DNA from: Terriglobus tenax
Lineage (GTDB): Bacteria > Acidobacteriota > Terriglobia > Terriglobales > Acidobacteriaceae
Assembly (NCBI RefSeq): GCF_025685395.1
Contig: NZ_JAGSYA010000003.1
Location: 496,001-560,000, forward strand
Length of the DNA stretch: 64,000 nucleotides
Direction of reading: 5' to 3'
Position 1 is the stretch's first letter, and every line of letters starts with the position of its first letter. The position numbers were made by a program, and so were the translations under genes. This document shows positions 3,762 through 39,357 of the stretch, piece after piece. The notes below the pieces were generated by a model that worked only from the letters and a program-made list of their open reading frames with translations, was not told the DNA's origin and ran no database searches.

Positions 3762-3779
3762 TGTGCAAACCGTTGCACT
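3762..3779. promoter_or_regulatory. Enhancer-like palindrome TGTGCA-N6-TGCACT
   Basis: TGTGCAAACCGTTGCACT, 11 of 12 arm bases matching the palindrome TGTGCA-N6-TGCACA also found upstream of wza. It sits between two divergent -24/-12 candidates (centre about -163 and -120). Proposed binding site of the sigma-54 activator encoded at 44745-46193; inference. Confidence 0.5.
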
Positions 3780-3863
3780 GCAGATACGGTTGCGATTGCG
3801 TGAATCGCTGCATATTTGCTCGTGTTCTTTGCAAACTCCGGCGTTCCTGTAAAAGGGGAATTC

Positions 3864-3879
3864 TGGCCCTCGATGTGCA
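3864..3879 (+). promoter_or_regulatory. Candidate sigma-54 promoter for the aminotransferase/PGT operon
   Basis: TGGCCCTCGATGTGCA has the GG-N10-GC spacing with TGGC at -24 and TGCA at -12. Predicted transcription start near 3890, giving an 80-base leader before the ATG at 3970. Palindrome centre is about 120 bases upstream. Confidence 0.55.
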
Positions 3880-3969
3880 TTGAATCCGGAACGTGTGGCC
3901 ATACAAGGAAGTGCTGGTGAGGTTCTGCTGGTTACAGAACCACGAATGAGCCGCCGGGAGGAGATGTCA

Positions 3970-5118
3970 ATGCAGAAGGTTCGGATGCTCAATTTAGAAC
4001 GTCAGTATGTCTCGCTTCGTGACGAGATCAATGCGGCGATTGAAAAGGTACTGGCGAATCAACACTTCATCCTTGGTCCTGAAGTGGCTGCCCTGGAAAC
4101 TGAGGTTGCGAATTATTGTCAGGTGGGACACGCGGTGGGCGTTGCGTCCGGTACGGATGCGTTGCTGCTGGCATTGAAGGCGGCCGGAGTTGGCCCCGGG
4201 GATGAAGTGATTGTGCCTGCCTTCACCTTTGTTGCAACGGCGGATACGGTCAGCCTTCTGGGGGCAACGCCTGTTTTTGCGGACATCGATCCGGTGACCT
4301 ACACCATGGATGTGAATGGCCTGGAGAAGTTGGTGACGCCGGCGACAAAGGCAATCATCGCGGTCCATCTGTATGGGCAGGCTGCGGATATCTTCGCGAT
4401 TGCGAAGTTTGCGCGGGCGCATAATCTTGTCTTCCTGGGAGATACGGCGCAGGCGCTGGGAGCGACGTACGCGGGCGATCCGGTCTGCTCTTTTGGTGAC
4501 TTCGGATGCCTTTCCTTCTTCCCCAGCAAGAACCTGGGAGCGTATGGCGACGGCGGCATGATCGTTACCAAGGATGCGGAACAGGCAGCCTTCCTGCGCA
4601 TGGCGCGCGCCCACGGCAGCGCAAAGAAGTATCGCAGCGAGTTCCTGGGATGGAACAGCCGTCTGGATGAAATTCAGGCGGCGATTCTGCGGGTGAAGCT
4701 GCCGCACCTGGATCGTTGGAACCAGCAGCGGCGTGAATGTGCTGCCCTGTACCGCGAGGCGCTGCAGGAGATTGATGAGATTGTTCTGCCGGTGACGGCA
4801 GAAGGACGGTCGCATGTCTTCCACCAGTTCACTATCCGTGTTCCCAATCGCGATGCCGTGCAGGCCGCACTGAAGGATATGGGCGTAGAGACGGCGGTGC
4901 ATTATCCGGTTCCCCTGCATCTGCAGCCGATGTACCAGTACCTTGGCTATGAGAAGGGAAGTCTGCCGGAGGCGGAGAAGGCTGTGGCTGAGGTGGTCTC
5001 GCTGCCGATCTATCCGGACCTGCTGCCGGAAGAGATTGCGTATGTGGGCGAGGCTTTGAAACAGGTGATGGCAAAGCCGGAGATGCGTTCGAGGTCTCTG
5101 GCAACACAGGCTGGGTGA
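3970..5118 (+). CDS. DegT/DnrJ/EryC1/StrS-family aminotransferase (WbpE-like)
   Basis: A 382-aa PLP-dependent sugar aminotransferase. GGGAGGAG lies 6 bases before the ATG at 3970, and an upstream in-frame ATG at 3964 touches that site, so 3970 is preferred. Family features: GTDALLLAL, VPAFTFVATA, the GDTAQALGA segment, and FFPSKNLGAYGDGG holding the PLP lysine. WbpE homologues transfer an amino group from glutamate to the 3-keto group of UDP-GlcNAc-3-keto-uronic acid. The presence of WbpA-, WbpB-, WbpD- and WbpI-like genes at 38-44 kb supports that role here. Its stop is followed after 1 base by the phosphoglycosyltransferase ATG, so the two form an operon. Other keto-sugar substrates remain possible. 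Confidence 0.88.
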   Translation: MQKVRMLNLERQYVSLRDEINAAIEKVLANQHFILGPEVAALETEVANYCQVGHAVGVASGTDALLLALKAAGVGPGDEVIVPAFTFVATADTVSLLGATPVFADIDPVTYTMDVNGLEKLVTPATKAIIAVHLYGQAADIFAIAKFARAHNLVFLGDTAQALGATYAGDPVCSFGDFGCLSFFPSKNLGAYGDGGMIVTKDAEQAAFLRMARAHGSAKKYRSEFLGWNSRLDEIQAAILRVKLPHLDRWNQQRRECAALYREALQEIDEIVLPVTAEGRSHVFHQFTIRVPNRDAVQAALKDMGVETAVHYPVPLHLQPMYQYLGYEKGSLPEAEKAVAEVVSLPIYPDLLPEEIAYVGEALKQVMAKPEMRSRSLATQAG

Positions 5119-5119
5119 T

Positions 5120-6460
5120 ATGAAGATTTGCGGAAAAGCATTACCGCCGCGAGCGGCGCTACTGCTCTCACTGGACTTTGTTGTGCTGGTGATTGTAGCG
5201 CCGCTTCTTTTTATCCTTCCTCTGCTGGCGGAAGGAAGCGGCAGACCACTTGGCAGTATTATGCTGGGCCTGCTGCGCCTGATGCTGGCCGGCATTGCCT
5301 GCCAGGCTATCTTTTATTATCACGACCTGTACAACCTGCAAATTGTTCGTGTGCCGCGGGCAACGGTGATACAGGTGCTGCGCGCGTTCGCGGTGTTGTT
5401 CGTCCTGCTTGCCACGGGACTGCTTCTGCTGCCGGGCCTTACACCTGTGCTCTCGCGAGTGTTGCTGTTCTCGACCTTTCTGGCCATGGTTACCGTGGTA
5501 TCGCGCAGACTTGCCCTGCCGCGAGCGCGTGAGCGCGTGCTGGTGATTGGTTCAGGCAGTGAAGCGGCGGAGTTGCAGCAGATCGTTCTCTCGAGCCCAG
5601 AATGGAATATGGAGGTGGCGCAGATTGCTCCTCCTTCCGGGCTTACGAGTCTGTTGCAGCGGGAGAAGGTTTTTGGAGATGCCTTCGACCGGATCATTGT
5701 TACGAATGTGAAGGCGCAGTCGGACGAAAACCTGGAGACACTGTTGAACTGCAAGATGACCGGCTTGCAGATTGAGGATGCGCAGGCTTTTTTTGAGAAG
5801 GCGACCGGGCGCGTGCGCGTCGACCACCTGAGCGCGGAGCAGTGCATCTTCTCAGACCGCTACAGCAACAGGCTGGGGAAAAGGTTTGCCAAACGGGTCT
5901 TTGACCTTGTGGTGGCTGGCTTGCTGCTGGTTGCCGTCAGCCCGGTGATCCTGCTGGTGGCAGTGGTGATTCGTTTGCGGAACGATGGCCCCGTGTTCTT
6001 CCGGCAGCAGCGGATTGGCTTGTTTGGGCGTCAGTTCAGCATTCTGAAGTTCAGAACCATGTCTCCCGTTGCCGCAGGGGAGAAGACCGGCTGGGCGGGC
6101 AAAGAGACGCACCGGATTACTCCGCTGGGGAAACATCTGCGCAAGTACCGTATTGATGAGCTGCCGCAGTTGCTGAATGTGCTGCGCGGCGAGATGAGCC
6201 TGATTGGCCCAAGGCCAGAGCAGCCGCACCTGTGCGATGTGCTGGAGGAGCAGGTTCCGTTTTATAAACATCGCCACTCGGTGCCGCCCGGTCTGACGGG
6301 ATGGGCCCAGGTAAGGTACCACTATGGCTCAAGCATTGAAGAGTCAAAGCGCAAGCTGGAGTATGACCTTTTCTATGTGAAGCATCTGTCGTTGTGGCTG
6401 GACTGCGCGATTGCGCTGGAGACGGTGAAGGTGGTTCTGGTGGGCCGGGGAGCGGTGTAG
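5120..6460 (+). CDS. Polyprenyl-phosphate sugar-1-phosphate transferase (EPS initiating enzyme)
   Basis: A 446-aa membrane phosphoglycosyltransferase that loads the first sugar-1-phosphate onto undecaprenyl phosphate at the inner face of the cytoplasmic membrane. Four N-terminal hydrophobic segments (about residues 10-35, 45-70, 85-110, 115-135) precede a CoA-binding-like region (VLVIGSGSEAAELQ). The catalytic WbaP/PglC-type domain begins with KRVFDLVVAGLLL; it has PVFFRQQRIG, KFRTM, the YRIDELPQLLNVL segment and SLIGPRPEQP. The RYHYGSSIEESKRKLEYDL segment resembles the EpsB subfamily found at PEP-CTERM-type EPS loci, although no exosortase is seen here. It is translationally linked to the preceding aminotransferase gene. 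Confidence 0.92.
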   Translation: MKICGKALPPRAALLLSLDFVVLVIVAPLLFILPLLAEGSGRPLGSIMLGLLRLMLAGIACQAIFYYHDLYNLQIVRVPRATVIQVLRAFAVLFVLLATGLLLLPGLTPVLSRVLLFSTFLAMVTVVSRRLALPRARERVLVIGSGSEAAELQQIVLSSPEWNMEVAQIAPPSGLTSLLQREKVFGDAFDRIIVTNVKAQSDENLETLLNCKMTGLQIEDAQAFFEKATGRVRVDHLSAEQCIFSDRYSNRLGKRFAKRVFDLVVAGLLLVAVSPVILLVAVVIRLRNDGPVFFRQQRIGLFGRQFSILKFRTMSPVAAGEKTGWAGKETHRITPLGKHLRKYRIDELPQLLNVLRGEMSLIGPRPEQPHLCDVLEEQVPFYKHRHSVPPGLTGWAQVRYHYGSSIEESKRKLEYDLFYVKHLSLWLDCAIALETVKVVLVGRGAV

Positions 6461-6461
6461 C

Positions 6462-6497: not shown

Positions 6498-6515
6498 TTC
6501 GCAGAGAGTTCTTAT

Positions 6516-9500
6516 TTACTGGTAAGCTCCCATCGACGGCTTGGAGCCTCGCGAGGTTCCTACGATATCGATGGTCGAGGTGTTGGAGGTTGTTCCCGCA
6601 GACTTTGCCGGTGAGCCTGACTGCAGGGAGAAGTTCGTGGTTGAAGTAAACAACGGATCGGCATTGATCGGGTTCGCGTCCCATGAAGGCGGCGCGCCTG
6701 CTCCATACCAGAGGTTGTACGATCCGCTAACATTGGTGGATCCCTTTTCAACGTAAGGCTGTGCGCTGGAAGGCTGCGAGCAGATGTTGTTGGTCAGATG
6801 CATGCCCGCGCCGCTGTAGACCACACCGAAACATCCGTTCTGATTGCCTTTGGTGTAAGCACCTGCGTCCACAACGGTGTTGTTGTAGACCTCGACGTTG
6901 CCGGTGGAAGTACCGGCAGCAGGATCGGAGTTGATGGCGATGCCTGCTTCGTTGGCAACTCCGTAGGGATTGTTGGCCAGGGCGGTATGCAGGACCAGGT
7001 TGTTGTAGATCTCTACCGTTCCCTGCGAAGGATTGACCGAGGCAAGCCCGATGCCGTCGCAGTAGCTGTTGGTCACGATGTTGTCGTGAATATGGAGATC
7101 GTACTGGTTGCTGCCCAGCGTGGCGTGGAACATGATGCCACGGCAGTAGCCCTTGAAATTCTGGCCGACGTTGTTCCAGCCGATGTCAGCGTGGTTGACG
7201 TTGCTGGAGAAGTAGACCGCGTGATAGGTCTTGTCGACGTTGCCACCGGTGTCGTGCACGTTGTTGCCGTGGAAGGCCCATGTCTCCGTGGGGTCCGTGG
7301 TTTCGCCGAGCACGCATGCGGTTCCACCCACGCCGGAAGGAGGCGCCGGGCAGGAGAGGCTGTTATTGATGATGCGGACGTTGCCTGCCTCGGCATCGAT
7401 GGCAGAGACCTGTCCAACGATGTTGAGATTGGCGACGGTGATGTACTTCCCCCACCCCTTGACGCCGTTCGTCACGGAAGTGCTGCCGACGTTGACCGTG
7501 CCCCCGGGATAGCCCACGATGTTGAGCTGGCTGGTGGCGGAGGTTCCTCCGATGTCTGTGGAGATAGCTGCTTTATAGCTGCGTCCATCGTCGAAGGAGA
7601 CGTCAGTCCCAGGCATCAGGTAGATGACGGTGTTTCGCACCGGCGAGGACGAGTCGCTGGAGGTGACGGAGTTGAAGGCGGCGCGCCATGTCTTGTAAGG
7701 CGAGGTGAAACTGCCCGTGTTGGTGTCCGCCCCGTTGGGCGATACGAAGACAATGTCCGTTGCCGTGACGGTGAAGGGCATGCCATTGGAAGAGAGACCG
7801 TTGACTGTAACGATGATGTTGCCGGTCTTCGCCGCGCTGCCAAGCTGCGCGATGATGACGGTATCGCTCCAGGAGCAGAGGCTGCAGTTGGTGACCAGCG
7901 ATCCACCAAGGCTGACGGTGCTGCTGCCCTGGGTCGCGCCGAAGTTGCTGCCGAAGATGCGAACGTAGACTCCGTTGCCGGTGTCACCGCCCGTACCGCT
8001 GCCGACGTTGATGTCGGTGTAGTTGATGTGCGGTCCGCCGGATGAGCCGGAGATCGGTGCAGCATTGATGGTCAGAGTCACTGTGCCGGTTTTGGATGCC
8101 GCAGGACTGCTGGAGTCAGTCGCCTGGATAGACAGTGTGGTTATTCCAGCAGCCGTTGGCGTACCGCTGAGCGAGCAGTTGCTCAGCGTAAGTCCAGCTG
8201 GAACCGTACCGCTGCTCAGGGAGCAGGTGTAAGGAGCCGTACCGCCGCTGACGCCAATGGTTCCGGTGTAAGCCGTGCCGACGGTTCCAGCCGACGGTGA
8301 GGAAAGTGTGAGCGTAACAGTCGGGGCGGCGTTGACGGTGACTGCAATCATGCCCGTGGTGGAGTTCACCGGGGTTGCTGCATCGGTCGCTTTCACTGAA
8401 AGTGAGTAGGTGCCTGCCGTGGTGGGTGTTCCGGTGAGTGTGCAATTGCTGAGGGTGAGCCCCGGTACCGATCCGCTTGTGAGGGCGCAGGTGTAGGGTG
8501 CTGTTCCACCAGCGACGCCAATGGTTCCAGTGTAGGCGGAGCCGACAGTGGCCGTCGCGGTTGGAGCAGTAAGCGTGAGGTTGACGGCTGCAGCTCTGAC
8601 GGTGACTGCAATGGTTCCTGTGGCGGAGTTCGCTGGGGTTGCGGCATCGGTCGCTCTGACGGAAAGTGAGTAGGTGCCTGCCGTGGTGGGTGTTCCGGTG
8701 AGTGTGCAATTGCTGAGGGCGAGCCCCGGTACCGATCCGCTCGCAAGGGCGCAGGCGTAGGGTGCTGTTCCACCAGCGACGCCAATGGTTCCGGTGTAAG
8801 CCGTACCGACAGTGGCTGTCGCGGTTGGAGCAGTAAGCGTGAGGTTGACGGCTGCAGCTCTGACGGTGACTGCAATGGTTCCTGTGGTGGAGTTTGCCGG
8901 AGTGGCCGCATCGGTCGCTCGCACGGAAAGCGAGTAGGTGCCAGCAGTCGTTGGTCTTCCGGTGAGTGTGCAATTGCTGAGCGAGAGCCCTGGTACCGAT
9001 CCGCTTGCAAGCGAGCAGGTGTAAGGAGCTGTTCCGCCGCTGACGCCGATGATGCCAGCGTAGGCGGAGCCGACGGTTCCGGCCGACGGCGAAGAGAGTG
9101 TGAGCGTGACAGCCGGGGCGGCGTTGACAGTGACTGCAACCGTGCTCGTGATCGAGTTCGCTGGGGTTGCCGCATCTGTCGCTCTGACTGAGAGCGAGTA
9201 GGTACCTGCCGTGGTGGGTGTTCCGGTCAGGGTGCAATTGCTGAGGGTGAGCCCTGGTACCGATCCGCTTGCAAGCGAGCAGGTGTATGGAGCTGTTCCG
9301 CCGCTGACGCCGATGATGCCAGCGTAGGCGGAGCCGACGGTGGCTGTTGTGGTTGGGGCGGTCAGCGTGAGAGTGACGGGGATAACCGGCGTGGCGGCGA
9401 TGGTGAACGGCACCGTTGCGATAGTTGTGTTTGCCGGGTTGGATGCGTCAGTCGCCTTGATGCTGAGATCGAAGGTTCCAGCGGCGACCGGTGTGCCGGT

Positions 9501-11915
9501 GATGACGCAGCCATTGAGCGTGAGGCCCGATGGCATGGCGCCGCTTGCGAGCGAGCAACTGTAGGGAGCGGTTCCTCCGCTGACCGCGATGGTTCCGGAG
9601 TAGATGGCGCCGGCTGTACCTGCTGGAGGGGCGGTCAGCGTCAAGGTGACGGGAGCCGCTGCAATGCTGAGCGTGACCGGGGCTGTGGTGGAGTTCGCCG
9701 GGCTGCTGGCGTCCGACGCACGGATGGCGAAGGTTGTATTGCCTGCGGCTGTTGGGGTTCCGCGCAGTGAGCAACCGGCGAGCGTCAGTCCGGCGGGTAC
9801 GCTTCCGTTTGCCAGGGCGCAGGTGTAGGGAGAGGTGCCTCCGCTTACGCTGATGGTGCCGTTATAGGCAGCGCCTACGGTTCCTGAGGGGGGTGAGCTG
9901 ATGGTCAGTGTGGCAGGTGGAGAGACTACGGTGAGTGTGACGGCCGAGGTGGCCGAGCCCGCTGGGCTGCTGGCATCCGTTGCCTTGATGACCAGGCTGC
10001 TGCTGCCGGTTACAGCAGTGACACCGGTGATGCCGCAGTTGTTCAGTGAGAGACCGGAGGGCAATGAGCCGCTGACGAGAGAGCAGGTATACGGAGCGCT
10101 GCCACCAGTGACTCCGATGGAGCCGTTGTATGCCTGGCCGGCGGTGACCGTTGCAGGCGAGGTGATGGAGAGCGTGGGTGCGACGTTTTCGACAACTACC
10201 GAGATTTTTCCGGAGCCCTTGCCTGCCGGTGTGGAGGAATCCGTTGCGCTTACGTCGAGAGCGAAGACGCCTGCAGTGGTGGGAGTTCCGCGAAGGGAGC
10301 AATTGCTAAGGCTGATGCCCTCGGGCAAGGAACCGCTGGTCAGGCTGCAGCTATAGGGAGCCGTGCCGCCGGTAACACCGATGGAGGCGGAGTAGCTGAC
10401 ACCTACGGTTGCAGAGGTGGGAGAGCTTACGGTGAGCGTGGGAGCCGCGTCCGCGATGGTGAGGCCAAGGCCGGCGCTGGAGACGGAGATACCGGCTGCG
10501 TCTGTTACACCCAGGACGAGTGTGGAGCTTCCGGCAGCGGTTGGTGTTCCAGCGATGTTGCAGCCGGAGAGAGCAAGACCGTTGGGGAGGGTGCCGGAAC
10601 GGATGGAGCAGGTGTAAGGCGATGTGCCGCCAGCGGCGGTGATGGCCTGCGTGTAGGCTTTGCCGACGGTTCCGGAAGAGAGAGAGGTTGTGGTGACGCG
10701 CAGGGAAGACGGAGCGATGGTAAGCGTGATGGAGCCCGAGGTTGAGGCTCCCGTGGCGTCAGTCACCGTGACGGTAAAGCTGAAGCTTCCGGATGCGGTG
10801 GGTGTGCCGTTGATGGTGCAGCCGTTCAGGGCGAGCCCCGCTGGCAATGAGCCTGAAGCAACCGCGCAACGATACGGAGCCGTTCCGCCAGAGGTATTGA
10901 TCGCGGAGGTGTATGCGACACCGACGGTGCCCGAGGCCAATGTGGTGGTGGTGATCTGCAGCGTGGGCTGGGCATTGGCGACTGTCATGGTGAGAGACGC
11001 CGTGGCCTGTGCGTTATTGCTGTCCGTGGCCTGTACCGAAACAGGGAAGGTTCCGGAGGCAGTGGGCATGCCGTGCAGAATGCCGGAGGAAGATACAACC
11101 GTGACGCCCGCAGGCAGCGAGCCGGAGACGATGCTCCAGGTGTAGGGAGCCGTTCCGCCCGTTGCCGTAAGCTGCGCAGCATAGGCGGATCCAACGGTCC
11201 CCTTGGGAAGTGAGGCTGTGACGACGCTCAGTTGCGTCGATGTGCCAGAGACGCGGATGCTCTTTTGCGTAAGAATGTTGGTCTTCGCATTGCTTGCGTC
11301 TGTGGTCTTGATCGTGAAGGTGAACATGCCGGCCGAGGAGGGGGTGCCGACTACCTTGCCGGCGGTGGAGTCAAAGGTAAGGCCAGTGGGAAGGCTGCCG
11401 GAAGCGACGGTCGACTGAACAGGATCAGAGCCGCCTGAAGTCGTGACAGCTCCTGTATACGGAACACCCACGGAGGCGGAATCGAGATTGGCCGCGACGG
11501 TCAACGCTGGATTTACAGTGACCGCGATCGACCCTGCATCGCCCGCGGTCACCATGCTGGCGTTGATGGTGGCGTGGAGCTGTGTGGCAACCGTTTGCGG
11601 CGCCGTGTACAGGATGGCGCCCGAACCTGGCGCAACGGAGCCGCAACTGCCGCTGGAGCAGCCTGTGCCGTTCACGCTCCAGGAGACATTCGCGACCGAG
11701 CTCGTCGGGATCTGGATGGATTGACCGGCGTTCAACGTGATGGCGGAGGTAGACGATGCCGCGCTGACCCTGGAACCCCAGCCACAACCGTTGAGGGGGA
11801 GAAGCAGGAGACTGATCGCTAAAAGTAAAAGCGGAAGTTCTACACGCTGTGAGCGGACGGAAATTGCGCCTGAGCGATCAGAGCAAATGAAGCAAATAGG
11901 GAATGCAAAACGCAC
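6516..11915 (-). CDS. Giant surface lipoprotein: 13 Ig-like repeats, IPT/TIG domain, right-handed beta-helix
   Basis: The open frame runs up to 12158, but the GTG at 11915 (AGGAG 12 bases upstream) is preferred. It puts the signal peptide LPLLLLAISLLLLPLNGC near the N terminus, with a lipobox Cys at about residue 44 (1799 aa). About residues 120-1290 hold 13 Ig-like putative-Ig (He_PIG type) repeats, recognisable by SGGTAPYTCSLASGS and GTPTTAGTYSL. Repeats 3-13 each carry two Cys. An IPT/TIG domain follows (about 1290-1390), then a pectate-lyase-like parallel beta-helix (about 1390-1799) with NNxx repeats and a final MGAYQ. The C-terminal part is paralogous to the gene at 14006-15613. Expected on the outer surface as an adhesin or EPS-acting enzyme; no catalytic residues could be assigned. 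Confidence 0.85.
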   Translation of the reverse strand: MRFAFPICFICSDRSGAISVRSQRVELPLLLLAISLLLLPLNGCGWGSRVSAASSTSAITLNAGQSIQIPTSSVANVSWSVNGTGCSSGSCGSVAPGSGAILYTAPQTVATQLHATINASMVTAGDAGSIAVTVNPALTVAANLDSASVGVPYTGAVTTSGGSDPVQSTVASGSLPTGLTFDSTAGKVVGTPSSAGMFTFTIKTTDASNAKTNILTQKSIRVSGTSTQLSVVTASLPKGTVGSAYAAQLTATGGTAPYTWSIVSGSLPAGVTVVSSSGILHGMPTASGTFPVSVQATDSNNAQATASLTMTVANAQPTLQITTTTLASGTVGVAYTSAINTSGGTAPYRCAVASGSLPAGLALNGCTINGTPTASGSFSFTVTVTDATGASTSGSITLTIAPSSLRVTTTSLSSGTVGKAYTQAITAAGGTSPYTCSIRSGTLPNGLALSGCNIAGTPTAAGSSTLVLGVTDAAGISVSSAGLGLTIADAAPTLTVSSPTSATVGVSYSASIGVTGGTAPYSCSLTSGSLPEGISLSNCSLRGTPTTAGVFALDVSATDSSTPAGKGSGKISVVVENVAPTLSITSPATVTAGQAYNGSIGVTGGSAPYTCSLVSGSLPSGLSLNNCGITGVTAVTGSSSLVIKATDASSPAGSATSAVTLTVVSPPATLTISSPPSGTVGAAYNGTISVSGGTSPYTCALANGSVPAGLTLAGCSLRGTPTAAGNTTFAIRASDASSPANSTTAPVTLSIAAAPVTLTLTAPPAGTAGAIYSGTIAVSGGTAPYSCSLASGAMPSGLTLNGCVITGTPVAAGTFDLSIKATDASNPANTTIATVPFTIAATPVIPVTLTLTAPTTTATVGSAYAGIIGVSGGTAPYTCSLASGSVPGLTLSNCTLTGTPTTAGTYSLSVRATDAATPANSITSTVAVTVNAAPAVTLTLSSPSAGTVGSAYAGIIGVSGGTAPYTCSLASGSVPGLSLSNCTLTGRPTTAGTYSLSVRATDAATPANSTTGTIAVTVRAAAVNLTLTAPTATATVGTAYTGTIGVAGGTAPYACALASGSVPGLALSNCTLTGTPTTAGTYSLSVRATDAATPANSATGTIAVTVRAAAVNLTLTAPTATATVGSAYTGTIGVAGGTAPYTCALTSGSVPGLTLSNCTLTGTPTTAGTYSLSVKATDAATPVNSTTGMIAVTVNAAPTVTLTLSSPSAGTVGTAYTGTIGVSGGTAPYTCSLSSGTVPAGLTLSNCSLSGTPTAAGITTLSIQATDSSSPAASKTGTVTLTINAAPISGSSGGPHINYTDINVGSGTGGDTGNGVYVRIFGSNFGATQGSSTVSLGGSLVTNCSLCSWSDTVIIAQLGSAAKTGNIIVTVNGLSSNGMPFTVTATDIVFVSPNGADTNTGSFTSPYKTWRAAFNSVTSSDSSSPVRNTVIYLMPGTDVSFDDGRSYKAAISTDIGGTSATSQLNIVGYPGGTVNVGSTSVTNGVKGWGKYITVANLNIVGQVSAIDAEAGNVRIINNSLSCPAPPSGVGGTACVLGETTDPTETWAFHGNNVHDTGGNVDKTYHAVYFSSNVNHADIGWNNVGQNFKGYCRGIMFHATLGSNQYDLHIHDNIVTNSYCDGIGLASVNPSQGTVEIYNNLVLHTALANNPYGVANEAGIAINSDPAAGTSTGNVEVYNNTVVDAGAYTKGNQNGCFGVVYSGAGMHLTNNICSQPSSAQPYVEKGSTNVSGSYNLWYGAGAPPSWDANPINADPLFTSTTNFSLQSGSPAKSAGTTSNTSTIDIVGTSRGSKPSMGAYQ
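8330..9400. repeat. 264-bp tandem repeats inside the lipoprotein gene
   Basis: Near-identical blocks recur with exact 264-base spacing. The word tgcaattgct, or its tgcaattg core, falls at 8441, 8705, 8969 and 9233. Each unit encodes one 88-residue Ig-like repeat. More diverged copies extend to about 11.4 kb. The frame is preserved, so copy-number change would keep the protein intact. Confidence 0.9.
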
Positions 11916-11982: not shown

Positions 11983-12000
11983 TGTGCAAAGGATTGCAAT
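11983..12000. promoter_or_regulatory. Enhancer-like palindrome TGTGCA-N6-TGCAAT
   Basis: TGTGCAAAGGATTGCAAT matches 10 of 12 arm bases of the shared motif. It lies between the lipoprotein gene and the acetyltransferase gene, about 151 bases upstream of the predicted start for the plus operon. It overlaps the minus-strand -12 element, so it may act only in the plus direction. Confidence 0.4.
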
Positions 12001-12010
12001 CTTCGAGCCG
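11995..12010 (-). promoter_or_regulatory. Candidate sigma-54 promoter for the giant lipoprotein gene
   Basis: Minus strand CGGCTCGAAGATTGCA: GG-N10-GC with a perfect TTGCA at -12 and GGC-CG at -24. Predicted start near 11984, 69 bases before the GTG at 11915. This placement also argues against translation from the far-upstream in-frame start at 12158. Confidence 0.45.
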
Positions 12011-12116
12011 CGGAGGGGGTAGCCGTAAATGCTTGATTCTTGGTTGAAGGTTTTGATGGAGGAGGAAGTTTTGTGGCCATAACAGGAAAAAATTTCCGAC
12101 TTGCATGACCCTTTAG

Positions 12117-12132
12117 TGGAACCTGAAATGCT
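12117..12132 (+). promoter_or_regulatory. Candidate sigma-54 promoter for the acetyltransferase-GT4 pair
   Basis: TGGAACCTGAAATGCT gives GG-N10-GC, with TGG at -24 and TGCT at -12, a weaker match than the others. Predicted start near 12143, 31 bases before the GTG start codon. Confidence 0.35.
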
Positions 12133-12173: not shown

Positions 12174-12737
12174 GTGTTCGCAGAGTTCAAAGAAGACCTG
12201 AAGCGCTACCGTGAGTTTGGTGAGTCATACCGCCGTATTGCATTGAATCCGGCGGTATGGTGCATCTTCTGGTATCGTCTTGGGCGCTGGATTTATCGGC
12301 CTGGCAGGAACCTGCTGGTGAGGGGTTTAGGCAAGCCGCTTCACCTTGCCGTGGCGACGGTGATGGAAGCGCTGATGCAGATGCGGCTGAATGTGCGCGC
12401 GGAGATTGGTCCGGGCCTTCTGATTGCGCATTGCGGCGGAATTACGTTGCACCCGGAAGTGGTGATCGGCAAACACTGCGACCTGGCGCACCATGTCACG
12501 TTGGGCACGCGGGGCGTTGGTTCAGTGGGTGCGCCAAGACTTGGTGACAACGTGTACATTGGCACGAATGCCGTGCTGATTGGACCCATCCTGGTTGGCG
12601 ACGGCGCGCGCGTTGCAGCGAACTCGCTCGTGAACCGCGATGTGCCGGCCGGCGCGACGGTGATGGGGGTGCCTGCAGCGATTGTGAAGCGCCGCATGCA
12701 GCCGGAGGAGATGGCTGGCGCTGAGGTGAGCGTATGA
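12174..12737 (+). CDS. Serine acetyltransferase-like hexapeptide-repeat transferase
   Basis: A 187-aa left-handed beta-helix acyltransferase of the CysE/EPS-acetyltransferase type. An alpha-helical N-terminal part (about 1-75) precedes hexapeptide repeats (about 80-165), with AHCGGITLHPEVVIGKHC, the probable catalytic His in HHVTLGTRG, and a PAGATVMGVPA end loop. The start is GTG and its ribosome site is poor. The stop overlaps the next ATG (ATGA), coupling it to a glycosyltransferase, so O-acetylation of an EPS sugar is more likely than cysteine biosynthesis. The exact acceptor is unknown. Confidence 0.8.
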   Translation: MFAEFKEDLKRYREFGESYRRIALNPAVWCIFWYRLGRWIYRPGRNLLVRGLGKPLHLAVATVMEALMQMRLNVRAEIGPGLLIAHCGGITLHPEVVIGKHCDLAHHVTLGTRGVGSVGAPRLGDNVYIGTNAVLIGPILVGDGARVAANSLVNRDVPAGATVMGVPAAIVKRRMQPEEMAGAEVSV

Positions 12738-14026
12738 CGAGTGATGATCGACCTCTGATTCTGTTCGTTGCACCTTACTTCGCTCCGGCATGTCATGGCG
12801 GCGTAGTGCAGATTTACATGGGCCTGCTGACACGCCTGAAGCGTTACCGGGTTATCGTGGTGGCGGACATGGTGAATACCACCGAAGAAGCCGCGAAGGC
12901 GTGGGATGCGGCAGCCTGGCAACAACATGGCTTCACGGTCGAGCGTATAGGAGCTTTCGAATTTCACATGCGTGCGAAGGGCTGGCTCCACAGACTGGGC
13001 CCGATCGGCAACGCTCTTGGTCTGTTGCAGTTCCTGATGAAGGGGAGACGGCAGTGGGCAGAATTGCTGCGACGCTACAAGCCGGATGGTGTGATCTGCG
13101 GGGGAACATACTCGGCGGGTTGGCTCATGGACTCACTTCCAAGGCATACAGCTCTTATCAACTACATCCATGGGGAGGAGCTGACCATGCAGGTGAAACC
13201 CCGCATGTTGATGCCATGGATGCGGCGTTGGCAATTCCGGTGCCTTGAGCGCGCGGATATGAATCTGTCGGTCAGTAGCTATTCCGATCATCTGATACGG
13301 CAGTTGACACACGCTCCTGTAGAAACCTTGCGGATACTGCCAAACTTTATCGACCTGGAACGGTTTCATATTTCTGGCAGGCGGGAAGAGTTGCAGGCAA
13401 AGTATGGATGGACTGGAAGAACGGTTCTGCTCACCGTGGCCCGGCTTGAGAAGCGCAAGGGGATTGACCAGGTTTTACGGGCGCTTGCTTTGTTGAAGCA
13501 ACAGGAGAAGCTGCCGGAGTCCTGGAGATATGCTATTGGAGGCCGCGGCGCAGAACAAAAGAGGCTTGCTCAACTGGTGAGCGATCTAGATATTGCATCG
13601 AGCGTAGAGTTTCTCGGGTTTGTTCCAGAGGAAGACCTTGCCGGTTTGTATGAAGCTGCGGATGTATTCGTGCAGCCGAACCGCGAGATTGATGGAGATA
13701 CCGAGGGATTTGGCGTGGTCTTCCTGGAAGCGAATGCCTGCGGCTTACCGGTCATTGGTGGTGAAGCCGGCGGCACGGCAGACGCCATTGACAATGGCCG
13801 TACAGGATTTCGCGTCAATGGCGACTCGGTCCGCGAGATCGCCGATGCCATTGCAATTCTGATGGAGAATTGCGAACTGCGTCTGCGTCTGAGTCAGCAG
13901 GGAATGGAATGGGCTTCGAACTTCGATGTAAACCAGGCTGTGCTGCGGTTTGAGGATCTTCTGGATGAAGCCATGCATCATCATCGTTTGGCGGAAGCTC
14001 TTACCTCAGTAAGCGCCGATATCTGA
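12734..14026 (+). CDS. Glycosyltransferase family 4
   Basis: A 430-aa GT-B retaining glycosyltransferase. The N-terminal domain has the glycine-rich FAPACHGGVVQ loop. The C-terminal domain has LLTVARLEKRKGID, the IGGRGAE strand and EGFGVVFLEANACGLPVIGG, an intact E-x7-E motif. It should add one sugar to the lipid-linked EPS repeat unit at the cytoplasmic face. It overlaps the upstream acetyltransferase stop by 4 bases. At its 3' end it runs 21 bases into the end of the convergent beta-helix gene. Confidence 0.9.
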   Translation: MTSDDRPLILFVAPYFAPACHGGVVQIYMGLLTRLKRYRVIVVADMVNTTEEAAKAWDAAAWQQHGFTVERIGAFEFHMRAKGWLHRLGPIGNALGLLQFLMKGRRQWAELLRRYKPDGVICGGTYSAGWLMDSLPRHTALINYIHGEELTMQVKPRMLMPWMRRWQFRCLERADMNLSVSSYSDHLIRQLTHAPVETLRILPNFIDLERFHISGRREELQAKYGWTGRTVLLTVARLEKRKGIDQVLRALALLKQQEKLPESWRYAIGGRGAEQKRLAQLVSDLDIASSVEFLGFVPEEDLAGLYEAADVFVQPNREIDGDTEGFGVVFLEANACGLPVIGGEAGGTADAIDNGRTGFRVNGDSVREIADAIAILMENCELRLRLSQQGMEWASNFDVNQAVLRFEDLLDEAMHHHRLAEALTSVSADI

Positions 14027-30434: not shown

Positions 30435-31707
30435 ATGCGCCTCCATGCTGCTTGGACCAGGTAAAAGTCACGAAGAAGACCGTACGTGCTAGGTCAACCG
30501 AGGACACGGTTCGCTGAAAGTGACGTACGGTGAAATCCCATTCCAGGTACTGTGAGAGCCGCCGGCGATATTCACCAGAGACAAAGTAGCCGCTGACATC
30601 GGAGCTCGCGGCGGTCAGGGTCCCGCCGTGGTAGCTGGTATAGCCGCTGTTGACATCAACGGTGAAGCGGCGAGGATTGCCGAGCCGTACACCGCCGTAT
30701 CCGGAGGTCTCCCACAGAGATCCGGAGATGGCGCCGTTGCCGCGTTTGCGGCTGGTGCCAATGTAGACTCGGCTGCCGCGGACGCTTTGCGCGGAGAGCA
30801 CGCCCTGGTACTGATAGTTCCCCGTGCATTGCGCGGAACCGAAAACCGGACCCGCGGAGCCGTCTGCCCGCAGTGATTCGGTCAACTGAACGGTGGTGAA
30901 AGCGGTAACGGCAGCCGTGGTGCATTGCCCGATGCCGAAGTTCTGGCGAACTCCATCACCACGGATGCCAGCCAGTACATGTGGTCCGAAGTACTGGCGA
31001 ACCGCCATGTTCACGTTGTACTGCTGGGTGGAAGGCGCTGCTCCCAGAAAGTTATGAAAGCCGGCGTTCGCTCCGAAGGTGAACGCCCGTGTCTCTGAGA
31101 GTTCGTGGTCGACTACAAAGTTGACGTACTGCCGAAGCACGTTTCCGCTGATCAGGCCCGCCTGGACGGTGCCGTTATCAATCGGGGTGTTGCTGACGGA
31201 AGACAGGCTAAGGCTGCTGCTGGCGCGTGCCGAGTCGGCGCCGTAGGCATTGGCTCCCGTCAGTCCCCAGGTCGTACGCCGGCTTGCGATACCGTTGAGG
31301 CTGACCGTGGTCCAGTGATACTGCTGAAGATCAAGGTTGCTGCCGGGGAACTGAAGGATTGTGGCGTCGTGGCTGAATGCCGAGGAGAAGCGGCGGCCGA
31401 CCGAAGCGATGCCTATATGTCCCTGAAGATTGCTGAACTGCGAACTCAGGTTCGGAATGTTGTTGACCGCGCTGTCGCGTCCGTAGCTGGCCGAGAGCCC
31501 CGCATCGAAGTAGGACTGCTCCCGCGGGTTAACCGCGGCGTCTACCCACATGGGCTTCAAATCCTGCTGCGTTGTTGAGGCGGTAGAGCTGTCCATGGTT
31601 GTGTCGTTGGTGCGGGAATATGCGGGAGCCTGCTGCGCGATAGCGACTGTCGCAGTCAGGCCGATAGGGGCAAGGCAGAAAAGAAATGCAAAGGAGCGAG
31701 TCTTCAC
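30424..31707 (-). CDS. Outer-membrane beta-barrel protein of the EPS operon
   Basis: A 427-aa protein with a signal peptide (cleavage near AIAQQ, about residue 25) and a body of alternating polar/hydrophobic strands rich in Gly, Ser, Thr and aromatic residues. It ends with strands such as RTVFFVTFTWSK. This fits a barrel of about 16 strands. It lies between the wza-like and wzz-like genes and shares ATGA with the former. Unnamed barrels at this spot are known from PEP-CTERM-type EPS loci. It may be the outer-membrane channel completing a short Wza; this is inference. Confidence 0.75.
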   Translation of the reverse strand: MKTRSFAFLFCLAPIGLTATVAIAQQAPAYSRTNDTTMDSSTASTTQQDLKPMWVDAAVNPREQSYFDAGLSASYGRDSAVNNIPNLSSQFSNLQGHIGIASVGRRFSSAFSHDATILQFPGSNLDLQQYHWTTVSLNGIASRRTTWGLTGANAYGADSARASSSLSLSSVSNTPIDNGTVQAGLISGNVLRQYVNFVVDHELSETRAFTFGANAGFHNFLGAAPSTQQYNVNMAVRQYFGPHVLAGIRGDGVRQNFGIGQCTTAAVTAFTTVQLTESLRADGSAGPVFGSAQCTGNYQYQGVLSAQSVRGSRVYIGTSRKRGNGAISGSLWETSGYGGVRLGNPRRFTVDVNSGYTSYHGGTLTAASSDVSGYFVSGEYRRRLSQYLEWDFTVRHFQRTVSSVDLARTVFFVTFTWSKQHGGAYGR

Positions 31708-32342
31708 GGAATCACCACCGTGTCACCTGGATTGAGTTGCAGATTGCGATTTGGGTCGGATCCCTGGATCAGGGCTTTGTAGTTCAGCCAGATTTCACTG
31801 CCTGTGTTACTGGCGCGGACAACGTGGATCTTTTTCTTGGAAGCAAATTCGGTAAGACCGCCGGCCTGCGCGATCAGCTGCAGGACCGTGATGGGAGCAT
31901 TCAACGGATAAGCGCCCGGGCGGGAAACCTCGCCGGTGATGTAAACCATGCGGCTGTGAATTTCGAGCACGGTCACAGTCACGCGGGGTTGCACCACCAT
32001 GGATGCGAGACGTGTCTGGATCAGCTCTTCCAATTGCGAAGGTTCTTTGCCGATGACGGCAATCTCGCCCAGTAGAGGAAGGGAGACCTTGCCGTCGGGC
32101 CGGACAACGACCGTCTGGCTTAGTTCTTTCTCTTTCCAGACCTGGATGTTGAGGACGTCACCGCTGCCGATGGTGTACTGGGGTGTGATGGTGGGCGTGG
32201 AACGCGTGTCGGGCTTTACTCCAGCAGGAGCCGTCGCCTTGGCGACATCAACGACGCGCTGCTGTGCCTGGCAGATTCCCGAAAAGAGAAGGGCCGCTGA
32301 CGCAATGCGAACGGTCCACGGGTTGCGAGACCTGAGCTTCAT
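31704..32342 (-). CDS. Polysaccharide export protein (Wza-like, Poly_export/SLBB)
   Basis: A 212-aa periplasmic/outer-membrane export protein with a signal peptide ending SGICQAQQ. The polysaccharide-export domain has YTIGSGDVLNIQVWKE and VRPDGKVSLPLLGEI; an SLBB domain follows (VYITGEVSRPGAYPL). GGAAGG lies 9 bases before the ATG at 32342. An ATG at 32351 touches this site and is less likely. No lipobox Cys is evident, and it lacks the C-terminal amphipathic helix region of full Wza. It is the first gene of a 12-gene minus-strand operon with a sigma-54-type promoter immediately upstream. Confidence 0.92.
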   Translation of the reverse strand: MKLRSRNPWTVRIASAALLFSGICQAQQRVVDVAKATAPAGVKPDTRSTPTITPQYTIGSGDVLNIQVWKEKELSQTVVVRPDGKVSLPLLGEIAVIGKEPSQLEELIQTRLASMVVQPRVTVTVLEIHSRMVYITGEVSRPGAYPLNAPITVLQLIAQAGGLTEFASKKKIHVVRASNTGSEIWLNYKALIQGSDPNRNLQLNPGDTVVIP

Positions 32343-32371
32343 AGTTGCCATCCTTCCGATGCCAGATAGGA

Positions 32372-32387
32372 AGCAATCAATCAGCCA
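32372..32387 (-). promoter_or_regulatory. Candidate sigma-54 promoter of the main EPS operon
   Basis: Minus strand TGGCTGATTGATTGCT: GG-N10-GC with TGGC at -24 and a full TTGCT at -12. Predicted start near 32361, about 19 bases before the wza-like ATG. A perfect palindrome (32456-32473) is centred at about -104. Confidence 0.62.
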
Positions 32388-32423: not shown

Positions 32424-33776
32424 TCAGCGGCTATTCGCGATAGCTTCCGGAAATGTGTGCATTGGCTTGCACACTTTCGGATATGCCTGTTTTCCGGCAT
32501 TAATCTGGTGATAAACAGCGATGGTGCGACGTGCAATTTCATCCCAGCCTGTATAGCGCTGGTTGTTGATGTGGGCGCCTGTCAGCAGCCGGTTATACAG
32601 GCTTGGGGAGCGTTCAACTCCGCACAGGCTTTCCATGACCTGGGTAAGTGCCGCGGACAGCTCAACCGCGTCTCCGGGAGCCACGAGCAGCGCATTTTCG
32701 TTGTGGCGAAGGTATTCCCGAAACGGAAGCAGGTCCGATGCGATGATGGGTTTGCGATAACTGAGGCCGGTGAGCAAGGCTCCACTGGTCGTAATTGCGC
32801 GATAGGGATAGACGAGCAGGTCCGCAGCCTCGTAATAGAGCGAGAGCTGGCTGGTGGGGATGTAGTGAAGGTCTGCCCGTATGTCATGAGGAAGCGCCTG
32901 CTCTGCCAATCGGGCTGCCATTTCCGTTTCATGCGCGCCCGTGCCTGCGATCACCAGCAGCGGCTGTATCGCCAGTGATCGTCTCCAGCGCAGAATTGAG
33001 AGCTGCCACGCTTTCAGCAAAAGGTCGACTCCTTTATAAGGAGCCATCACACCCTGCCATAAAACGACGGGGCGACCTTCCGGAAGGCCGAGGCTTTTGC
33101 GTGCCACTGCGGCGGTCTCCTCGTTGGCCGGCGGAGCCTCAAACAGCGGGCCGTGCGGTATGACGGAGATAGAGCCTGCGGGAACAGAGAATTGCCTGAC
33201 GAGAGATTCAGCGACGTCGCAGGAGTGACAGATCAGATGATCCACGGACTGGTAGAACCGGCGATAGGTTGTCAGGAGTTGTTTGCCGGTGTCATGCGGC
33301 AGCAGGTTGTGGACGGTATGCAGGACCGGGATGGAACGGCGTTGCGCCGCCGCGATCAGCTTGAAGTCGACTGTGAAGTCGTGGTTCAACAAGGGGAGCT
33401 GCTGCAGGTGAAGAATATCCGGCAGCGTTTCGCTGGAACGGTTAAGGACACGTGTCAGGGCCATGCAGTTTGAAACGGCCGCGGCACAGCGCAAGGCGCG
33501 CCGTGCAGAAGAGGGCCAACCGTTGGCCCAGTGATCAAAACGAAATGGGCCTGGATCGGGAGACAATCCAAACTGAGAAAAGTATTCTGGCTCGCGCGAG
33601 ATGCCTGCGCTGAGAAAGCGCAACGAGATATTTGCCGATAAAAGAGCCCTGGCCAGCGCCGCGCTATACCAGGGGGTAAAGCAAAGCGGATCGCTGAACC
33701 AGACCCGTAAGGCGGCATGCCCGTCTTCTGATTGCGCGCTGGACTGCACCGGATTGGTGATGGTAGACGTGCTCAT
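32424..33776 (-). CDS. Glycosyltransferase family 4
   Basis: A 450-aa GT-B protein. The N-terminal domain includes HTVHNLLPHD; the C-terminal domain includes LWQGVMAPYKGVDLLL, VIAGTGAHE and a PYRAITTSGALLTGLSYRKP segment. The usual first Glu of E-x7-E is replaced (TTSGALL), as in some GT4 subgroups. It is the last gene of the 39.2-32.4 kb operon. Its 3' coding end contains the palindrome proposed to control the next operon. Its start overlaps the upstream GT4 stop (ATGA). Confidence 0.87.
   Translation of the reverse strand: MSTSTITNPVQSSAQSEDGHAALRVWFSDPLCFTPWYSAALARALLSANISLRFLSAGISREPEYFSQFGLSPDPGPFRFDHWANGWPSSARRALRCAAAVSNCMALTRVLNRSSETLPDILHLQQLPLLNHDFTVDFKLIAAAQRRSIPVLHTVHNLLPHDTGKQLLTTYRRFYQSVDHLICHSCDVAESLVRQFSVPAGSISVIPHGPLFEAPPANEETAAVARKSLGLPEGRPVVLWQGVMAPYKGVDLLLKAWQLSILRWRRSLAIQPLLVIAGTGAHETEMAARLAEQALPHDIRADLHYIPTSQLSLYYEAADLLVYPYRAITTSGALLTGLSYRKPIIASDLLPFREYLRHNENALLVAPGDAVELSAALTQVMESLCGVERSPSLYNRLLTGAHINNQRYTGWDEIARRTIAVYHQINAGKQAYPKVCKPMHTFPEAIANSR
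32456..32473. promoter_or_regulatory. Perfect enhancer-like palindrome TGTGCA-N6-TGCACA
   Basis: TGTGCATTGGCTTGCACA, both arms perfect, lies 69 bases beyond the -24 element of the wza-like operon and inside the end of the upstream GT4 gene. The placement is that expected for a sigma-54 activator site. Reference copy of the motif. Confidence 0.55.
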
Positions 33777-35904: not shown

Positions 35905-35915
35905 TGCAATACCTA

Positions 35916-37325: not shown

Positions 37326-37326
37326 G

Positions 37327-37695: not shown

Positions 37696-38075
37696 CCGGT
37701 AACGCTCCTGTCTGTTTTTGAAAGCAGTGCGATGCCCACGGCCATGACGCTGATGCCTGCCCAGCGCACCAGGCCCATCTGCTCATGCAGCAGGAAATGT
37801 CCGGCAATGCCCAGCAGAACGTAGTTTGTTGCCGCAAGCGGATAAAGATAGCTGATGTTCTTCTGCGCTACGGCTGCGAACCAAAGCACGGTTCCCAGCC
37901 CGTAGACGCAGAGCCCGATGAGGACTCCCATCGGGAGGATCAGTGGCCAATGCAGAGCCGGCAGACCAAAGCGGCCCTTCCCCAAAAGGCCCAGCTTGAT
38001 GAGGATCTGCCCCGCTGCAGCCATGGCCACTGAGCCACCCACCAAAATCTCCGATTTGTAACGAGCGAATCGCAT
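37692..38075 (-). CDS. EamA/SMR-type small transporter, subunit 2 (ArnE/ArnF-like)
   Basis: A 127-aa four-helix protein. It has AAAGQILIKLGLL in helix 1 and SYLYPLAATNYVLLGIAGHFLLHE, parallel to the partner gene. Probably forms a heterodimeric flippase with the 37327-37695 product. Lies just after the Gfo/Idh gene in the operon. Confidence 0.78.
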   Translation of the reverse strand: MRFARYKSEILVGGSVAMAAAGQILIKLGLLGKGRFGLPALHWPLILPMGVLIGLCVYGLGTVLWFAAVAQKNISYLYPLAATNYVLLGIAGHFLLHEQMGLVRWAGISVMAVGIALLSKTDRSVTG

Positions 38076-38102
38076 GAGTCGTTCTGTGAAAGGTTCCAGT
38101 GG

Positions 38103-39224
38103 TTACTGCGCTGCTACGACCGGGATATTGTTGGGGATCATGGGAAGTCGTGGAGTCCACTGCCGGTTGATGGGGGGGGCTGGCGGCAGCTCCTTCTCCG
38201 GAGCATTCGGGTTCAGCGAGACCGGAAGTCCATCCATCTCGAGCGACTTCTGTGCGGCCTCCAGGATGCGGACCACGCGCAGGCCGTCCTGTGAATCGCT
38301 GCGCGGTGTAACGCGGTGCTCCACGCAGTAAAGGAAGTGCTGGAACTCCAGCTTCAGCGGCTCGGTCGTCGTCAGGCGCGGAATCTGGATATCTCCGAAG
38401 CGCACCTGAATGGCTTCGCCATAGGAGCTGGCAGGTGGCGCCTGCGCTCCACTGTCGTAAATGCGAAGCTTCTCCGTGGCGGCGGCGTCGTCAAAGACCA
38501 GCATCTTCTTGCTGCCAACCACCGTGGTGCTGCGCATCTTGTGCGGGTCAAGCCACGAGATATGGATGTGCGCCATGCGGCGGTTTTCGAAGAAAAGGCT
38601 CAGGAAGACGACATCTTCAATGCCGTCCTGAATAAAGGACTGGCCGCGAGCGCTTACATCCACCGGCTCTTCTCCCAGGATGTAAAGAATCTGCGAGATG
38701 TCGTGCGGCGCGAAGCTCCACAGGGCGTTTTCGTCGCCGCGGATACGGCCAAGGTTCACGCGCTGGGTATAGATGTAATAGATGTCGCCCAGGTCGCCGG
38801 ACTGCACGATCTCGCGAATGCGGTTGACGGCAGGGTGATACTCCAGAAGATGGCCCACCATCAGGATGCGGTTGCGGGCATCCGCCAGGGCCGCGAGCTC
38901 TTCGGCATCCCGGACATTCAGCGTGAAGGGCTTCTCCACAAAGACATCCTTATCCGCGAGCAGGGCTTTCTTGGCGAGGCTGTAGTGCGTAATCGCCGGA
39001 GAGCTGATGACGACCGCGTTAATCTCCGGGTAATGCGCGAGCATTTCATCAAGTGATGCAACCGTTTGCACACCCCAGTTCCGTTGCGCCATCGTCCGGC
39101 GGTTTTCACTCAGGTCACTGCAGACGACCAGGTCGCACTCTGGCATTTCGTACAGGCAGCGTGCAACATTGCATCCCCAGGCTCCAAGGCCTATGACTCC
39201 AACCTTCAATCGGGTTCCCATCAT
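38103..39224 (-). CDS. Gfo/Idh/MocA oxidoreductase (WbpB/WlbA-like)
   Basis: A 373-aa NAD-dependent sugar oxidoreductase. The N-terminal Rossmann motif is VGVIGLGAWGCNVARCL, followed by FVEKPFTLN with the catalytic Lys of EKP. GRIRGDENALWSFAPHDI is the segment typical of WbpB/WlbA, which oxidise C3 of UDP-GlcNAc-uronic acid. AAGGAG lies 9 bases before the first ATG. It heads the minus operon and diverges from the WbpA-like dehydrogenase gene that would make its substrate. The 3-keto product would go to the aminotransferase at 3970. Confidence 0.88.
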   Translation of the reverse strand: MMGTRLKVGVIGLGAWGCNVARCLYEMPECDLVVCSDLSENRRTMAQRNWGVQTVASLDEMLAHYPEINAVVISSPAITHYSLAKKALLADKDVFVEKPFTLNVRDAEELAALADARNRILMVGHLLEYHPAVNRIREIVQSGDLGDIYYIYTQRVNLGRIRGDENALWSFAPHDISQILYILGEEPVDVSARGQSFIQDGIEDVVFLSLFFENRRMAHIHISWLDPHKMRSTTVVGSKKMLVFDDAAATEKLRIYDSGAQAPPASSYGEAIQVRFGDIQIPRLTTTEPLKLEFQHFLYCVEHRVTPRSDSQDGLRVVRILEAAQKSLEMDGLPVSLNPNAPEKELPPAPPINRQWTPRLPMIPNNIPVVAAQ

Positions 39225-39264
39225 CGTCCGAATCTCCTTCTGTGAATCGTGTGCAACCTGTCAA

Positions 39265-39280
39265 TGCAATCGCAAGGCCA
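39265..39280 (-). promoter_or_regulatory. Candidate sigma-54 promoter of the WbpB-like operon
   Basis: Minus strand TGGCCTTGCGATTGCA: GG-N10-GC, TGGC at -24 and a perfect TTGCA at -12. Predicted start near 39254, 30 bases before the ATG. The palindrome at 39340-39357 is centred at about -94. Confidence 0.6.
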
Positions 39281-39339
39281 ACATATCCCCGTATATTCGG
39301 GGCGGAGTTGAGGACTGTTTCCGCATTGCAGGGGAGAAG

Positions 39340-39357
39340 GGCGCAAAGCTTTGCACA
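39340..39357. promoter_or_regulatory. Enhancer-like palindrome GGCGCA-N6-TGCACA
   Basis: GGCGCAAAGCTTTGCACA contains the perfect 12-base core GCAAAGCTTTGC. Read on the minus strand it is TGTGCA-N6-TGCGCC, matching 10 of 12 arm bases of the shared motif. It lies between the two divergent sugar-nucleotide operons. Confidence 0.48.

Follow-up and report, generated by a model that had tools for sequence, protein, structure and literature searches.

A shared palindrome and conserved −24/−12 elements point to a probable sigma-54 regulon in the exopolysaccharide locus of Terriglobus tenax

What controls the operons of the large exopolysaccharide (EPS) locus of Terriglobus tenax? The window analysed here is a 64,000-nucleotide stretch of this acidobacterium (NCBI RefSeq assembly GCF_025685395.1, contig NZ_JAGSYA010000003.1, positions 496,001 to 560,000 of the forward strand). 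In it the locus extends from epim1 (2603–3571) to a gene for a bacterial enhancer-binding protein (bEBP, 44745–46193), and its products include sugar-nucleotide enzymes, glycosyltransferases, Wzx/Wzy/Wzz/Wza-like proteins, polysaccharide deacetylases and large Ig-like/BACON proteins. A first-pass annotation had taken four copies of an 18-bp palindrome, TGTGCA-N6-TGCACA, for enhancer sites of one regulon. This proposal was strengthened by the clustering and conservation of the sites, by promoter elements present in all seven genomes compared and by near-fixed spacing between the two. Thus, the palindromes are likely to be upstream activating sequences (UAS, or enhancers) of a single sigma-54 regulon covering the EPS locus, with the 44745–46193 bEBP as the most probable binder.

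The four copies were found where they had been reported, at 3762–3779, 11983–12000, 32456–32473 and 39340–39357, with 1, 2, 0 and 2 arm mismatches, respectively. Contrary to the claim that none lay elsewhere in the window, the same pattern at 10 or more of 12 arm bases also matched at 18535, 39055, 45131 and 48469. The matches at 18535, 45131 and 48469 were intragenic (in the GT4b, bEBP and wHTH_TolB genes), and that at 39055 was the fifth site of a refined pattern. At three mismatches the 18-bp pattern occurred 37 times in the window against 36.3 expected, and because such counts are at chance level it was dropped as a search pattern and replaced by the 16-bp sequence GTGCAA-N4-TTGCAC, the invariant core of the aligned copies. 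Conserved flanks widened the operator to ~24 bp, AAGTRTGCAA-N4-TTGCAYACTT.

Allowing one mismatch at most, the 16-bp pattern gave five sites in the window, whereas 60 Markov simulations averaged 0.27 and never exceeded 2. The whole genome (4,359,123 bp) held five copies at this threshold, all in the window (starting at 3763, 11984, 32457, 39056 and 39341) and all inside a 35.6-kb span of the EPS locus. A control pattern, the same sequence read backwards, occurred nine times in the genome; at two mismatches the counts were 136 for the real pattern and 219 for the control. The number of sites was not above the control, so the signal lay in their clustering. With uniform placement, the probability of five sites falling within 35.6 kb was ~2 × 10^−8, an optimistic figure because the pattern had been refined on the same five sites. 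A matrix trained on 25 sites taken at aligned positions, with the window excluded, ranked the five window sites first (21.8–25.6 bits); the sixth match scored 11.9 bits and the maximum on reversed sequence was 6.6. Equally good copies in unrelated genes had been named in advance as evidence that would count against a regulon. None was found in this genome at one mismatch or fewer, and a profile of the operator, built from 30 sites of the seven bEBP-bearing genomes of the genus and scored on the best 150 candidate places per genome, matched, at E≤10, the five window sites and no others (best 150 of 995 candidates here).

These data bear on the idea that the palindromes are short inverted repeats arising by chance in AT-richer intergenic DNA. 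The chance-level count of the looser pattern, a genome count of the 16-bp pattern below its control and 23 perfect 6-4-6 dyads in the window against a flat expectation of 15.6 would agree with it, but the confinement of every copy with at most one mismatch to the locus in this genome, together with cross-species conservation, fixed spacing and the held-out scoring, speaks strongly against it, and we regard a chance origin as hardly credible.

Comparison of the corresponding regions in related genomes, which the first-pass annotation had suggested, drew on six further members of the genus (G120, T. albidus; G121; G095; G126; G031; G123, T. roseus), giving seven with the window genome. The locus had the same gene order in all six, with deacA unmatched in T. 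roseus, and the palindromes, to which no strand was assigned, were at equivalent positions; a lack of conservation in relatives, the second outcome named in advance as counting against a regulon, was not seen. Palindrome A (GTGCAAACCGTTGCAC, 3763–3778, no mismatches), in the epim1/degT intergenic region, had two mismatches or fewer in 7/7 genomes, and so did palindrome C (32457–32472), which is upstream of the wza operon and overlies the final codons of the preceding glycosyltransferase open reading frame (32424–33776), just before wza. Palindrome B (11984–11999), between HePIG and hexaT, had one mismatch in 6/7 and was degenerate (four mismatches) in T. roseus. Palindrome D (39341–39356), in the gfo/ugd intergenic region, had at most two mismatches in 3/7 and three or four in the other four. 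The fifth site, palindrome F (39056–39071), missed earlier, is in the 5′ coding part of gfo, with one mismatch in 6/7, and was lost in T. roseus. Of the copies placed by the first-pass annotation at the upstream sides of EPS operons, A and D are between divergent genes and C is before wza. Palindrome B is also between divergent genes, provided that HePIG starts at the inferred GTG at 11915, but it overlaps the core of the HePIG promoter.

As palindrome F is in coding sequence, its codons were compared. The four codons fixed by F were all identical in six genomes, with a varying spacer codon, while 47 of 268 same-residue codons were identical in these genomes. Conservation extended to the codons near F (8 of the 11 printed, counting those of F), so the test is suggestive only of F being more than mere codon conservation.

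Conserved −24/−12 elements were sought as GG-N10-GC in at least six of seven aligned rows of the intergenic-region alignments, since a consensus sigma-54 scan alone was not specific and cross-species conservation was needed to select elements. Eight elements were obtained, each in 7/7 rows: seven intergenic and one within the conserved gfo coding sequence. Shuffling of columns (those with more than one gap dropped) gave a mean of 0.3 and a maximum of 3 in 300 shuffles. Each of the seven intergenic elements precedes a different gene: epim1, degT, HePIG, hexaT, wza, gfo or ugd. Distances were taken by aligned column from the palindrome centre to the predicted start, degenerate copies (B in T. 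roseus, D in four genomes) included.

Around palindrome A, the element of the degT aminotransferase and sugar transferase genes (3970–6460, plus strand) was TGGCCCTCGATGTGCA (3864–3879, plus strand), with the palindrome at −116.5 to −121.5, and that of epim1, an NAD-dependent epimerase/dehydratase gene on the minus strand, was TGGCATTCGAAATGCA (3619–3634, minus strand), with the palindrome at −161.5 to −165.5. The hexapeptide transferase and glycosyltransferase genes (hexaT-GT4a, 12174–14026, plus strand) were preceded by TGGAACCTGAAATGCT (12117–12132, plus strand; palindrome B at −151.5 to −154.5), and the wza-like exporter gene, first of an export/assembly operon (31704–32351, minus strand; start at 32351 or 32342), by TGGCTGATTGATTGCT (32372–32387, minus strand; palindrome C at −103.5 to −105.5). 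For palindrome D, the element of gfo, a Gfo/Idh/MocA oxidoreductase gene (38103–39224, minus strand), was TGGCCTTGCGATTGCA (39265–39280, minus strand; −93.5 to −97.5), and that of the ugd-GT2-hexapeptide transferase-wecB-epimerase genes (39499–44704, plus strand, inferred ATG at 39499) was TGGCATATCCCGTGCA (39470–39485, plus strand; −141.5 to −147.5 in 6/7 genomes and −259.5 in T. albidus). The genes behind these six promoters are the predicted targets. The seventh promoter, that of HePIG (6516–11915, minus strand), which encodes a large protein of Ig-like repeats whose N-terminus resembles that of lipoproteins, was CGGCTCGAAGATTGCA (11995–12010, minus strand), with its −12 half within palindrome B and the palindrome at −7.5 in all genomes.

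The arrangement of a dyad UAS ~80–200 bp upstream thus held for six of the seven promoters (93.5–165.5 bp) and failed at HePIG and at ugd of T. albidus. In the latter genome (locus L072, near 11200–11400) a ~112-bp insertion between palindrome D and the ugd element, a natural spacing variant, accounted for the shift from ~−147 to −259.5. Upstream of the bEBP gene (region E), no palindrome was marked in the alignment and no GG-N10-GC reached six of seven rows, so a palindrome or sigma-54 element governing the bEBP gene itself was rejected.

Two other features of the gfo/ugd region were seen. The ugd −24/−12 is so close to the inferred ATG at 39499 in 7/7 genomes (stretch 39470–39499; predicted leader of ~2–3 nt) that the predicted mRNA would be nearly leaderless. 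A second −24/−12-like string, TTGCACACTTTTTGCA (39351–39366), overlapped palindrome D; it was without the GG and was not kept as GG-N10-GC.

The HePIG element was the top hit of the window in the consensus sigma-54 scan, yet scored below 15 bits by a sigma-54 matrix trained on all 49 elements. Its −12 was inside palindrome B in all six genomes keeping that palindrome, and no other window palindrome of at least 13 bits was near this promoter. An IHF (integration host factor)-consensus-like site (WATCAANNNNTTR, 12026–12038, minus strand) was present in 7/7 genomes between palindrome B and the hexaT promoter; such matches occurred 1–3 times per 54–64 kb region. A tentative suggestion is that palindrome B might be a two-way switch, the activator enhancing hexaT-GT4a from ~−152 and blocking the divergent HePIG promoter at −12/+1, so that EPS and an adhesin-like protein would be expressed reciprocally, and that site F might be an auxiliary enhancer backing the often degenerate D.

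The sigma-54 activator reported for the locus proved to be an intact-looking one: the 44745–46193 protein (minus strand) has Sigma54_activat, AAA lid and HTH_8 (Fis-type helix-turn-helix) domains, with a GAFTGA motif in its AAA+ domain and a degenerate receiver-like N-terminus. Its profile aligned with the NtrC-family chain 4l4u_A over positions 6–425 of 480, and the recognition region ISYRxLLYKI did not vary among 15 aligned sequences, of which its own was one. One match to the RpoN (sigma-54 DNA-binding) domain was found in the genome, and the bEBP was linked to the EPS locus in all seven syntenic genomes. A Pfam scan of N-termini for receivers gave no match for the window protein; among five relatives, one was over the cut-off, three were below it and one had none. 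Asp55 was present and nearly invariant, but the acidic pair of ordinary receiver domains was absent, and among the window genes scanned (up to 54215, neighbours of the bEBP included; genes beyond 54446 were outside the scan) none was recognised as coding for a histidine kinase. These two observations suggest that the bEBP is likely controlled by something other than an ordinary phosphorelay.

We propose that a dimeric Fis-type activator, most likely the 44745–46193 bEBP, would bind AAGTRTGCAA-N4-TTGCAYACTT ~93–166 bp upstream of the −24/−12 promoters. The DNA would then loop, with an IHF-like bend assisting in region B, and the GAFTGA-bearing AAA+ domain would spend ATP to open RNA polymerase–sigma-54 at the promoters of degT, epim1, hexaT, wza, gfo and ugd. 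A single palindrome would suffice for both divergent promoters at A and likewise at D.

The bEBP and the operator were then compared in other genomes. The bEBP was present (E≤1e-120) in 7 of 19 genomes of the genus. The operator profile matched at E<0.005 in nine, namely these seven and G127 and G129, two fragmented assemblies outside the profile training whose contigs carry degT…HePIG; the other ten had a best E of at least 0.05 or no match. Fifteen loci outside the genus were also scanned (a scan with no control), and palindromes of at least 14 bits were found in nine, in seven of them with a facing sigma-54-like site (at least 11 bits) within 200 bp. Such pairs occurred between epim1 and degT in Granulicella mallensis (L108) and L109, the latter having one upstream of ugd as well; in L117, L119 and L120 they adjoined bEBP-wza genes, and L110 and L114 also had them; L112, L113, L115, L118, L126 and L142 had weaker palindromes only.

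Is the local bEBP the protein that binds these sites? The sites could instead belong to a sigma-54 regulon bound by a bEBP from a different part of the genome, with other targets for the local one. A search with the local bEBP gave at least five matches in the genome at E≤1e-60, one of them the protein itself (13 of 21 candidates scored), and three relatives have paralogues of 67–69% identity away from the EPS locus, but the linkage of the local bEBP to the locus in 7/7 syntenic genomes and the adjacency of its relatives to EPS genes outside the genus (L108, L109, L117, L119 and L120) make such a distant binder rather unlikely. A second regulator, wHTH_TolB (46868–49036; a winged-helix protein with a TolB-like beta-propeller), is a neighbour of the bEBP at every one of the seven syntenic loci, and L108 has a 34% homologue in the same place; the palindromes might be operators of this protein, alongside a further sigma-54 activator. 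This is less probable still, for L109 (a 14-kb contig) and the L117, L119 and L120 stretches, all with palindromes and sigma-54-like sites, yielded no wHTH_TolB homologue, and dyads 93–166 bp upstream of −24/−12 elements fit bEBP sites. The identity of wHTH_TolB across loci was 40–46%, less than for most EPS enzymes there.

Several observations weigh against an enhancer regulon run by the local bEBP. The simple pattern at one mismatch or fewer occurs 4–17 times per genome of the genus, below its backwards control in 17 of 19, and confinement of all copies to the locus was seen in the T. tenax genome alone, relatives having off-locus copies. The reversed control of the held-out matrix peaked at 12.7 bits in G095 and 20.4 bits in G031. 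Four of the seven genomes have a degenerate site D, and T. roseus has lost both B and F; palindrome B spans about −15 to +1 of the HePIG promoter, a position ill-suited to activation; and the trained sigma-54 matrix gave 15 bits or more to just four of the seven window promoters. As to the binder, wHTH_TolB beside the bEBP in 7/7 loci could be the one, and no palindrome of at least 13 bits was found around the bEBP paralogues (67–69% identity) in G031, G095 and G126, within ~55-kb stretches that are lopsided, with ~4–6 kb on one side. Among 120 genomes of the family, the profile matched at E≤0.03 in 20, with ~3.6 matches expected by chance; 17 of these genomes were outside the genus, and in one or two of them the match was near a bEBP among the bEBPs listed. 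The attempt to tie the motif to the bEBP outside the genus through these 120 genomes, by exact match and by profile, was abandoned as the signal was too diffuse, the matches there being mostly not near a listed bEBP.

A sigma-54 regulon governed by the local bEBP would have parallels elsewhere. According to a report on Vibrio fischeri (PMC10162802), the bEBP SypG is encoded within the syp EPS locus and activates sigma-54 transcription of that locus through a UAS quoted as TTCTCANNNTGMDWN. The Terriglobus bEBP gene likewise is in an EPS locus and its product is predicted to drive sigma-54 transcription there, whereas the motif is different, and SypG is phosphorylated via SypF and RscS, unlike the present protein with its degenerate receiver and no histidine kinase recognised among the genes scanned. 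The UAS of LuxO, TTGCAWWWTGCAA as quoted in that report, has the same TTGCA/TGCAA half-site letters as the Terriglobus operator but in the opposite order and spacing, TTGCA-N3-TGCAA for LuxO and TGCAA-N4-TTGCA here. In Burkholderia cenocepacia (PMC5552954), the bEBP BerB controls EPS production (Bep) with RpoN, acts through berA, has no N-terminal input domain and reportedly binds cyclic di-GMP; the paper places most bEBP sites ~80–150 bp upstream. The two cases would be alike in having a bEBP and sigma-54 govern EPS genes, and differ in the N-terminus, which in Terriglobus is degenerate and receiver-like. By analogy, the system would work like SypG- or BerB-type EPS control and appears to be an arrangement of a kind known in other bacteria.

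The PrsK/PrsR/PrsT system of PEP-CTERM Proteobacteria (Haft 2006, PMC1569441) has an NtrC-like bEBP near EPS genes and a 17-nt motif, ending in TTTACA, ~63 nt before −24/−12 elements and preceding PEP-CTERM genes. The Terriglobus locus is like this design in its NtrC-like bEBP near EPS genes and in a motif ahead of −24/−12, and three of its proteins resembled EPS models of PEP-CTERM systems, all below cut-off (wza, TIGR03027, 155.2 vs 180; g28151, TIGR03018, 79 vs 230.65; wzy, TIGR03097, 62.7 vs 188.1). PrsK/PrsR identity was rejected: the bEBP scored 272.2 against a cut-off of 502.6 for the PrsR equivalog TIGR02915, PrsK (TIGR02916) gave none over the cut-off among 26 partial matches (best 106.9 vs 300), and exosortase (EpsH, PF09721) had no match in the genome, which is 98.41% complete.

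Sigma-54 and bEBPs have been associated with EPS and cell-surface genes (PMC3162934; D. vulgaris regulome, PMC4641369); four acidobacterial names were sought by word in the main text of PMC3162934 and none was there. A literature search, with most subscription journals outside it and hence no proof of novelty, gave no paper, among those listed, on sigma-54 regulation of acidobacterial EPS loci. Acidobacteria are abundant soil EPS makers, and the analysis supplies an explicit operator sequence, together with a candidate activator and seven predicted promoters, that can be tested in named strains, T. roseus DSM 18391 and T. albidus DSM 26559 among them. Near-fixed spacing, enhancers common to divergent promoters and a promoter-overlapping site would make the locus well suited as a natural system in which to study the geometry of sigma-54 enhancers.

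Off-locus palindromes were also recorded in relatives. Perfect 24-bp dyads at L216:6689, L217:6869 and L220:764 (G120, G121 and G129) precede a gene for a ~720-aa protein, 87–92% identical among the three, with a signal-like N-terminus and no Pfam match; a sigma-54 site scoring at least 12 was beside one of the three only (L217), and the gene is perhaps an extra regulon member. T. roseus has, near a GDSL-lipase gene (L219:6314), a 24-bp palindrome mismatched at one arm base, G121 one of 23.6 bits at 2075570 (L218:6576) with a DUF1152 gene and a gene of the phage-integrase family close by, and G126 a copy without mismatches between glmS and g54446. A three-site cluster in G122 (2857354–2889634), a genome without the bEBP at E≤1e-120, was judged to be chance: one site scored 14.3 bits with no sigma-54 site within 250 bp and the others scored below 13. 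In the T. tenax locus itself, g28151 resembled a tyrosine autokinase, below cut-off. Pairs of bEBPs were seen in L117:9692–14023, L119:6094–11131 and L120:6072–11128, where a longer bEBP is followed by a palindrome and sigma-54-like site and then by a ~300–360-aa bEBP upstream of wza and wzz genes.

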